Source: Citreicoccus inhibens
GTDB lineage: Bacteria > Myxococcota > Myxococcia > Myxococcales > Myxococcaceae
Assembly: GCF_019039035.1 (NCBI RefSeq)
Contig: NZ_JAHNZT010000016.1
Coordinates: 1-64,000 of the forward strand
Reading direction: 5' to 3'
DNA length: 64,000 nt
Shown here: positions 2,170 through 3,371 of the stretch, in pieces
Numbering within the stretch: the first letter of the stretch is position 1
How the letters are laid out: each line of letters begins with the position of its first letter
Position numbers and translations under genes: made by a program
The notes under the pieces: generated by a model
Seen by the model: only the letters and a program-made list of their open reading frames with translations
Database searches by the model: none
What the model was told of the DNA's origin: nothing

Positions 2170-2745
2170 CTAGCTCGCGCGCCAGGCGGTCCACAGGGAC
2201 ACCGCGCCGAAGATGAAGAAGAGCGCGGCGGCCACCCACCGCACCCAGCTCATCTGCACGCGCCCGGCGAGCTTCTCACCCAGGAACACCGCGAGCCCGT
2301 CCGACACCATCATCCCCGCGGTGGTGCCGAGCGTCACCGCCACCGGCATCTGGTAGCGCGCGGCCACGGCCATGGTGGCGAACTGCGTCTTGTCCCCCAT
2401 CTCCGCGAGGAAGAAGAGCACCACCGTCGTGAGGAAGGGACCGAAGCGCGACGCCTTCTCGCCCTCGTCATCCAGCGTGTCGGGCTTGAGCGTCCAGAGT
2501 CCGAACCCGATGAAGAGCACGCCCAGGATCAGGGCCATGATGCGCGCCGGCACGTGCGAGGACACCCACGCGCCCACGGTGGAGGCCAACGCGTGATTGG
2601 CCACCGTGGCCACGAAGATTCCCGCCAGCACCACCCACGGGCGGCGGAAGCGTGACGCCAGGGAGAACGCGAGCAACTGCGTCTTGTCCCCCATCTCACT
2701 GGCGGCGACCAACACGAACGAGCTGACGATTGATTCCAGTACCAT
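2170..2745 (-). CDS. GDT1/UPF0016 (TMEM165-like) manganese exporter
   Basis: 191-residue inner-membrane protein with the duplicated three-helix architecture of the UPF0016/GDT1 family. Both signature motifs EMGDKTQ are present (about residues 17-23 and 115-121), one per half; these acidic residues line the cation path. Bacterial members export Mn2+ and the eukaryotic ones move Mn2+/Ca2+. An in-frame extension upstream is rejected because homology starts at MVLESIVSSF. The leader contains a yybP-ykoY-type riboswitch, which independently supports a manganese role. Function is inferred from family plus riboswitch. Confidence 0.93.
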   Translation of the reverse strand: MVLESIVSSFVLVAASEMGDKTQLLAFSLASRFRRPWVVLAGIFVATVANHALASTVGAWVSSHVPARIMALILGVLFIGFGLWTLKPDTLDDEGEKASRFGPFLTTVVLFFLAEMGDKTQFATMAVAARYQMPVAVTLGTTAGMMVSDGLAVFLGEKLAGRVQMSWVRWVAAALFFIFGAVSLWTAWRAS

Positions 2746-2834
2746 CACGACTCCACGGTTGAGTCCTGGCCTGGGTTCGTGGGGGCGGGATGAGCGCACG
2801 ACGGACCTCGGCCAGGAAGGTGTCTTCCTGTCCG

Positions 2835-2942
2835 AAGGTCTCGTTCGCCTCGCGAGCTGCGAGGTGGGGGCCCGGGCTGTCACCAGCCAGTGTGTCGAGC
2901 GTCCCGACGCCGATGACTCCGGCGTGAACTACTCCCCTTGCG
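2835..2942 (-). promoter_or_regulatory. yybP-ykoY (Mn2+) riboswitch in the leader of the UPF0016 gene
   Basis: On the minus strand the leader reads CAAGGGGAGTAG (GGGGAGTAG at 2937-2929), the 5' signature of yybP-ykoY aptamers. About 90 nt later comes CGAACGAGACCTT (2847-2835), the conserved 3' signature that forms the metal-binding junction with it. Between them are hairpins GCCGG..TCGGC (near 2923-2909) and CCTCGC-loop-GCGAGG (2866-2850). AAGG and CCTT can close P1. The aptamer ends about 90 nt before the start codon, leaving room for an expression platform. It is expected to raise exporter synthesis when Mn2+ is high. Confidence 0.85.
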
Positions 2943-3116
2943 TGAAGAGGCACGTAGCAGTCCCCCCGCCCCCGCGTCAACGCGAAGCACGCACTCGAGC
3001 GAGCCAGCGGCGCGGCGGAGGCCCGGCCCTTTTTTTGACGGCGTGCCGGGGTGCCCCCCTAATGCCCGGGTCAGGTCGGTAGCGGCCTGTAGCAACCCCG
3101 AGTGGAGGAAGCCCCG

Positions 3117-3371
3117 ATGCAGGATGGAAGCGCCAACCCGCTGAGCCCCGAAGCTCCGTCTTCGCCGTCCACGGCGGAGTCGGTCGCCGTCCGCGGGCCC
3201 GATGCCGACGTCGTCTCCACCCACGTGCTCGTGCCGGAGGAGCAGGTCCAGAAGCTGCGTGAGTTGGCGCGGCGCACGCGCATCCACCAGAGCGAGTATC
3301 TGCGTGAGGCCGTGGAGGACCTGTTGTCCAAATATGGACGGATGCCCGAGCGCCCCGAAGGTGAGTCGTGA
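3117..3371 (+). CDS. Ribbon-helix-helix (CopG/Arc-like) DNA-binding protein
   Basis: 84 residues. The N-terminal ~35 are disordered (Ser/Pro/Glu-rich). The C-terminal ~45 form a ribbon-helix-helix: strand STHVLVPEEQ, helix VQKLRELARRTR and helix QSEYLREAVEDLLSKYG. RHH proteins bind DNA as dimers through the beta ribbon. I choose ATG at 3117 because GGAGGA at 3104-3109 is well spaced for it; a GTG at 3102 is also in frame. No toxin or partner gene is adjacent, so it is more likely a stand-alone regulator than an antitoxin. Target unknown. Confidence 0.8.
   Translation: MQDGSANPLSPEAPSSPSTAESVAVRGPDADVVSTHVLVPEEQVQKLRELARRTRIHQSEYLREAVEDLLSKYGRMPERPEGES

Follow-up and report, generated by a model that had tools for sequence, protein, structure and literature searches.

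Described members of the yybP-ykoY riboswitch class (RF00080), such as those of L. lactis yoaB, X. oryzae and E. coli mntP, combine an L1 strand GGGGAGUAG and an L1' strand CGAGACC with an L3 loop of the form UCRACAYACU plus YGG, a four-way junction, a short P1.1 helix whose 3' strand also lies in a competing downstream hairpin, and a Mn exporter gene next to the leader, and all of these are shared by the myxobacterial leader reported here. According to excerpts of the X. oryzae crystal structure paper, A48 of L3 (the discriminator) and A10 of L1 are the key residues (PMC6754395), and a partial text on L. lactis describes a P1.1 3' strand that is common to a terminator hairpin, with Mn2+ stabilising P1.1 (PMC11087558). 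The pairing of this riboswitch with UPF0016 genes is already well known, since excerpts of a review place the UPF0016 gene under yybP-ykoY control in 328 of the 333 strains screened that have such a gene (PMC7380456). The Vibrio parahaemolyticus mneA leader is alike, being a Mn-sensing riboswitch upstream of a Mn exporter gene in the available part of its report (PMC13274385). Compared with the RF00080 members named above, the myxobacterial aptamer is GC-rich, has a GUUC/GAAC P1.2 and carries G at L3 position 45, its platform hairpin is without a U tract, and the RF00080 model is blind to it. No prior report of a yybP-ykoY or manganese riboswitch in myxobacteria was found in the literature searched, though the original survey of Dambach et al. 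2015 may already list such members.

The leader was located in the genome of Citreicoccus inhibens (GCF_019039035.1, contig NZ_JAHNZT010000016.1), of which positions 1-64,000 form the window, i.e., the whole 64,000-nucleotide stretch analysed. It occupies the minus strand, flanked by a divergent ribbon-helix-helix gene and by a gene of Mn homeostasis, whose previously proposed GDT1/UPF0016 identity was borne out by a PF01169 match (E 7.3e-49, 2745-2170) and by an EMGDKT motif occurring twice in the translation, in agreement with the E-x-G-D-[KR]-[ST] definition of the family in the excerpted review (PMC7380456). A scan for MntP family genes found none in the C. inhibens genome, so the GDT1 exporter may be a main Mn efflux route of this organism. 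We take MneA of Vibrio parahaemolyticus to be a UPF0016 protein too. The features of the locus are as follows.

3102-3371, plus strand: divergent ribbon-helix-helix gene on the other side of the leader
2831-2945, minus strand: yybP-ykoY (Mn2+) aptamer, 132 bits with covariance model R1, whose training alignment includes this sequence itself
2936-2939, minus strand: 5' strand AAGG of the P1.1 switch helix, from a structure drawn by hand on the alignment
2929-2937, minus strand: L1 5' strand GGGGAGTAG, motif match
2907-2925, minus strand: P2 hairpin, two-sided changes in 3 of 5 pairs
2866-2905, minus strand: P3 arm, made of P3.1 (2905-2899 with 2871-2866), L3 and the P3.2 hairpin (2888-2875)
2889-2898, minus strand: L3 5' strand TCGACACACT, the Mn-binding loop by homology, placed by alignment
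2872-2874, minus strand: L3 3' strand CGG (UGG or CGG in 79 of 80 canonical aptamers)
2848-2864, minus strand: P4 hairpin
2837-2843, minus strand: L1 3' strand (L1') CGAGACC, motif match
2835-2838, minus strand: 3' strand CCTT of P1.1, common to the downstream hairpin
2804-2840, minus strand: conserved expression-platform hairpin (anti-P1.1), GACCTTCGGACAGG...CCTGGCCGAGGTC, which takes the P1.1 3' strand
2764-2771, minus strand: GGCCAGGA, candidate anti-sequestor, complementary to the hairpin 3' strand TCCTGGCC at 2817-2810 (z -2.74)
2751-2754, minus strand: Shine-Dalgarno-like GGAG within a small local hairpin (2766-2749)
2170-2745, minus strand: GDT1/UPF0016 gene for a predicted Mn2+ (cation/proton) exporter, open reading frame of 191 aa

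The preliminary description had placed a yybP-ykoY aptamer with two signature motifs and intervening hairpins at 2835-2942, which fits closely the interval obtained here. The minus strand carries both motifs, GGGGAGTAG (2937-2929) and the longer 3' motif CGAGACCTT (2843-2835), with the P2, P3 and P4 hairpins between them, and L1, L1', L3, the four-way junction, P1.1 and the target gene family all agree with its assignment. The L1 strand conforms to GGGGAGUAG and stands across from (C)GAGACC, and the core loop UCGACACACU...CGG matches the canonical UCAACAUACU...UGG and the wider form UCRACAYACU...YGG, including the invariant discriminator adenine (A48/A41) as placed by alignment. In the X. oryzae numbering, the equivalents of A48 and A10 align to positions 2893 and 2933, respectively, and both are invariant across all 37 distinct aptamer rows. 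In the 9.05-Mb genome the two motifs at this spacing appear together a single time, the control pattern read backwards is absent, and the R1 genome scan revealed no other convincing copy, the next match having an E of 3.4. The single-sequence fold of the aptamer region is not unusually stable (z -0.82), so the evidence for the aptamer is comparative and does not come from folding energy.

A search with RF00080 had also been proposed for this leader, the lack of a match being named among the grounds for refutation, and no match was obtained. RF00080 (Rfam 15 model) gave no match in the window at the cut-off of 45 bits and none in the C. inhibens genome, and the interval 2600-3200 gave none at E up to 10; none of 195 genomes of the phylum exceeded the cut-off, with four showing weak matches (E < 0.05, at most 18.3 bits), and Rfam scans of seven related loci contained no RF00080 match. 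The positive control on E. coli leaders gave 41.6 bits for mntP (L070, 962-1058), below the cut-off, and alx (L071) was not reported. The mntP alignment stops before the (C)GAGACC strand, so that in this match one of the strongest signatures of the class is unused by the model. Among 18 loci drawn from 80 pattern-selected aptamers of named bacteria, which are treated below, five reached the cut-off in cmscan and 13 stayed below, including all nine loci taken as actinobacterial from their organism names (L127, L132, L145, L152, L153, L158, L168, L169 and L176). Because the model fails on known members (mntP, alx and 13 of the 18 named aptamers), the missing match is discounted: the null is traced to the model and not to the RNA, and is uninformative for this leader. 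The family model looks to be in need of rebuilding.

GDT1 homologues were searched in 145 genomes of the order, 86 of which gave a match at E up to 0.001, and the 69 loci whose DNA was examined provided 67 upstream regions after the own locus (L031) and L068, which had no gene match in tblastn, were left out. Both motifs were found at the right spacing upstream of 44 of the 67 genes, with the aptamer present in all 43 close homologues (≥67% identity) of the window's own family f1 and in one of 18 loci of family f3, and absent from the other 17 f3 loci, two f3 upstream regions being incomplete, and from six distant homologues. Of the two GDT1 copies in genome G021 a single one has the aptamer, and within family f3 the locus L050 has the aptamer and L053, whose upstream region is incomplete, is without it. 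At E < 0.05, R1 found no match in the 24 motif-less myxobacterial GDT1-homologue loci (L068 included), nor did it find E. coli mntP and alx.

Alignment A1 of the 37 distinct aptamers, with a hand-drawn structure of 29 pairs, showed 96.7% of pair cells paired, and pairing fell to 39-46% when partners were slid by one to three columns. Compensatory, two-sided changes were observed in 12 of the 29 pairs, against a shuffled mean of 4.4, and none of 500 shuffles reached as high. The four-way junction of P1.2, P2, P3 and P4 is present, with two-sided changes in P2, P3.1 (3 of 5 pairs), P3.2 (3 of 5) and P4, while P1.2 is invariant in the 37 rows and by itself uninformative. In P1.1 only the pair 7-129 covaries, in one sequence, so this helix is supported mainly by conservation. 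RNAalifold returned nearly the same structure, with P1.1 shifted by one position and extra pairs inside L3. Because exact motifs served to select both the 44 leaders and the 80 named aptamers, the conservation of L1 and L1', and of L3 in the 80, is partly by construction.

In three other genomes of this order the gene that follows the aptamer encodes a CaCA-type exchanger in place of GDT1 (L107, 934-1042; L108, 920-1030; L109, 2444-2554); the exchanger call comes from a Na_Ca_ex Pfam match in L107 and L108 and from likeness by eye in L109, where L1 and L1' depart from the consensus. R1 matches in five genomes with E values of 0.019-0.030 were taken as chance, the four inspected (L111-L114; the fifth is in G086) being without GGGGAGTAG, and a match in L110 (E 7e-4) was excluded from the members because it is degenerate and followed by no recognised transporter.

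When public genomes were scanned for L1, degenerate L3 and L1' with bounded distances between them, at least 118 stretches fitted, and the matches listed include 80 named-contig loci that, judged by organism names, come from Pseudomonadota, Actinomycetota, Cyanobacteria and Firmicutes. L3 in these 80 is CAACATACT in 50, CAACACACT in 19, CGACATACT in nine and CGACACACT in two, and in the 44 myxobacterial aptamers it is CGACACACT in 40, CGACATACT in three and CGACACACC in one. The P3.2 hairpin immediately after L3, followed by NGG, was observed in 80/80 listed named aptamers and 44/44 myxobacterial ones; the first two P3.1 pairs form in 78/80 and 44/44, respectively, and P1.2 has at least three pairs in 78/80 of the listed. 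R1, built from myxobacteria only, recovered 65 of the 80 at the pattern site with E up to 1 and 62 with E up to 0.01, part of its score being given beforehand by the exact-motif selection. The best match among the 80 listed was Longimycelium tulufanense (76.1 bits, E 5e-16), with a GDT1 gene after it. Picking downstream open reading frames by length and hydrophobicity gave one at 71 of the 80 loci (the other nine had no qualifying frame), and the first after the aptamer belonged to Mntp in 29, GDT1 in 27, Na_Ca_ex in seven, VIT1 in four, and Cation_efflux and DUF6796 in one each. When 36 of the 80 canonical aptamers were aligned with MAFFT (A4), the P3 arm came out misaligned in the actinobacterial rows, and the alignment was therefore not used to build a model.

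The nearest aptamers by R1 are actinobacterial, namely L. tulufanense L152 (before GDT1, 76 bits) and Diaminobutyricibacter L127 (before VIT1, 72 bits), which share TTC...GAACGAGACC and, past the aptamer, a run of CTTCGG or CTCCGG, and L127 additionally shares CTGGC...GCCCGG. The actinobacterial aptamers differ in their phylum, their platforms and their more varied targets (VIT1, Na_Ca_ex, GDT1 and Cation_efflux). Two further loci were encountered in this comparison. In Nocardia flavorosea (L132) the aptamer at 201-335 precedes a gene at 372-1154 matching DUF6796 (PF20599, E 6e-7), a family of unknown function and thus a candidate new manganese-related protein, seen in one case with the reading frame picked by a simple rule. 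A Selenomonadales contig that already has one aptamer gave an unselected R1 match (L175, 2269-2363, plus strand; 48.5 bits, E 4e-9), which is probably the second Mn riboswitch of that contig.

Leader conservation, compensatory changes and the L3 match settle the class membership: on this comparative evidence the leader element is an ordinary member of the known yybP-ykoY class, and by class homology its aptamer would bind Mn2+. Two readings that depart from this were weighed. If the leader were simply an attenuator or a protein-binding element whose conservation has another cause and whose likeness to yybP-ykoY is accidental, the missing Rfam match would be accounted for, but L1, L3, L1' and the covarying arms agree with the class, R1 recovers aptamers across phyla with E down to 5e-16, and the target gene family is common to the class, as the excerpted review also has it (PMC7380456); this reading is strongly disfavoured, its probability being close to nil. 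Slightly better placed, though still very improbable, is a proposal in which the same fold responds to some other divalent ion or to several signals together (pH, Cd2+, Fe2+), Mn2+ not being the physiological ligand. It would draw on the G at L3 position 45, where most aptamers have A, with position 49 usually C, and on the presence of related aptamers ahead of VIT1 and Na_Ca_ex genes, whose products are not confined to Mn transport. However, the discriminator adenine is invariant in 37/37 distinct rows, and G45 also occurs in 11 of the 80 listed aptamers (nine CGACATACT and two CGACACACT), some of which stand ahead of genes for GDT1 or for further predicted metal transporters; moreover, position 45 contacts the metal via its phosphate in the excerpted structural paper (PMC6754395).

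In the expression platform, the P1.1 switch helix and the downstream hairpin are mutually exclusive, and the L. lactis topology, with the P1.1 3' strand in a competing hairpin, is visible in the C. inhibens hairpin 2840-2804. The anti-P1.1 hairpin was observed in 39 of the 44 leaders (21 distinct), the other five having longer variants, and 99.6% of hairpin cells are paired in the 21 distinct platforms; the hairpin hardly varies, hence the weak covariation (two-sided change in 1 of 12 pairs). No U tract follows the hairpin and no terminator-like site was found in the leader, so the output is not intrinsic termination, and the switch probably acts on translation or through Rho, turning expression ON with Mn. 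The platform layout recurs in other bacteria, Caloramator L163 being an example that has a U tract. Further downstream, CACGA (2781-2777) in the candidate anti-sequestor region faces TCGTG (2801-2797), and across the 37 distinct leaders, which are related and not 37 independent results, the hairpin 3' strand with its next bases is more complementary to the pre-SD stretch than dinucleotide shuffles are (mean z -2.19; z < -1 for the duplex in 33 of 37). The corresponding test for SD sequestration gave no excess over chance (mean z -0.32), blocking P1.1 in equilibrium folds did little to free the SD (in 44 leaders its mean unpaired value was 0.29 to 0.33), and equilibrium platform folds showed no SD opening when P1.1 was formed, so the translational model is one that we infer.

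We propose that plentiful Mn2+ would bind between L1 and L3, dock both arms of the four-way junction and stabilise the short P1.1 helix, so that its 3' strand would be withheld from hairpin 2840-2804 and the exporter would be made. Without an intrinsic terminator, the output would most likely be translation initiation, possibly Rho-backed, and the 3' strand released from the hairpin could pair with bases immediately ahead of the ribosome-binding site. Both the ON direction and a translational output with an anti-sequestor are thus offered as a proposal. In a different version, the aptamer is genuine and its output is Rho-dependent or pausing-based control of transcription, translation being secondary; the GC-rich leader without a U tract fits this, as does E. 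coli mntP, which is controlled by Rho together with its riboswitch according to the available part of PMC11647493 and by analogy makes a Rho contribution plausible here. The complementarity of the competing hairpin's 3' strand to the pre-SD stretch would nevertheless be superfluous in a purely transcriptional design, and we consider this version rather unlikely, though by a wide measure the most credible of the alternatives.

Overall, the leader of this GDT1-family exporter gene very probably contains a yybP-ykoY Mn2+ riboswitch acting as an ON switch, most likely at translation and possibly with Rho as a backup. More tentatively, and with some doubt on our part, myxobacteria and actinobacteria might share a GC-rich Mn2+ riboswitch subtype missed by Rfam, joined in myxobacteria to a three-strand translational platform in which the hairpin would take the P1.1 3' strand without Mn2+, and with Mn2+ the freed 3' strand would pair ahead of the SD and open the ribosome-binding site. 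A missing RF00080 match says little about whether such a riboswitch is absent, most of all in GC-rich phyla, and on the present reading the GDT1 exporter would be under Mn-responsive control in a myxobacterial family where the model commonly used for annotation detects no such riboswitch.
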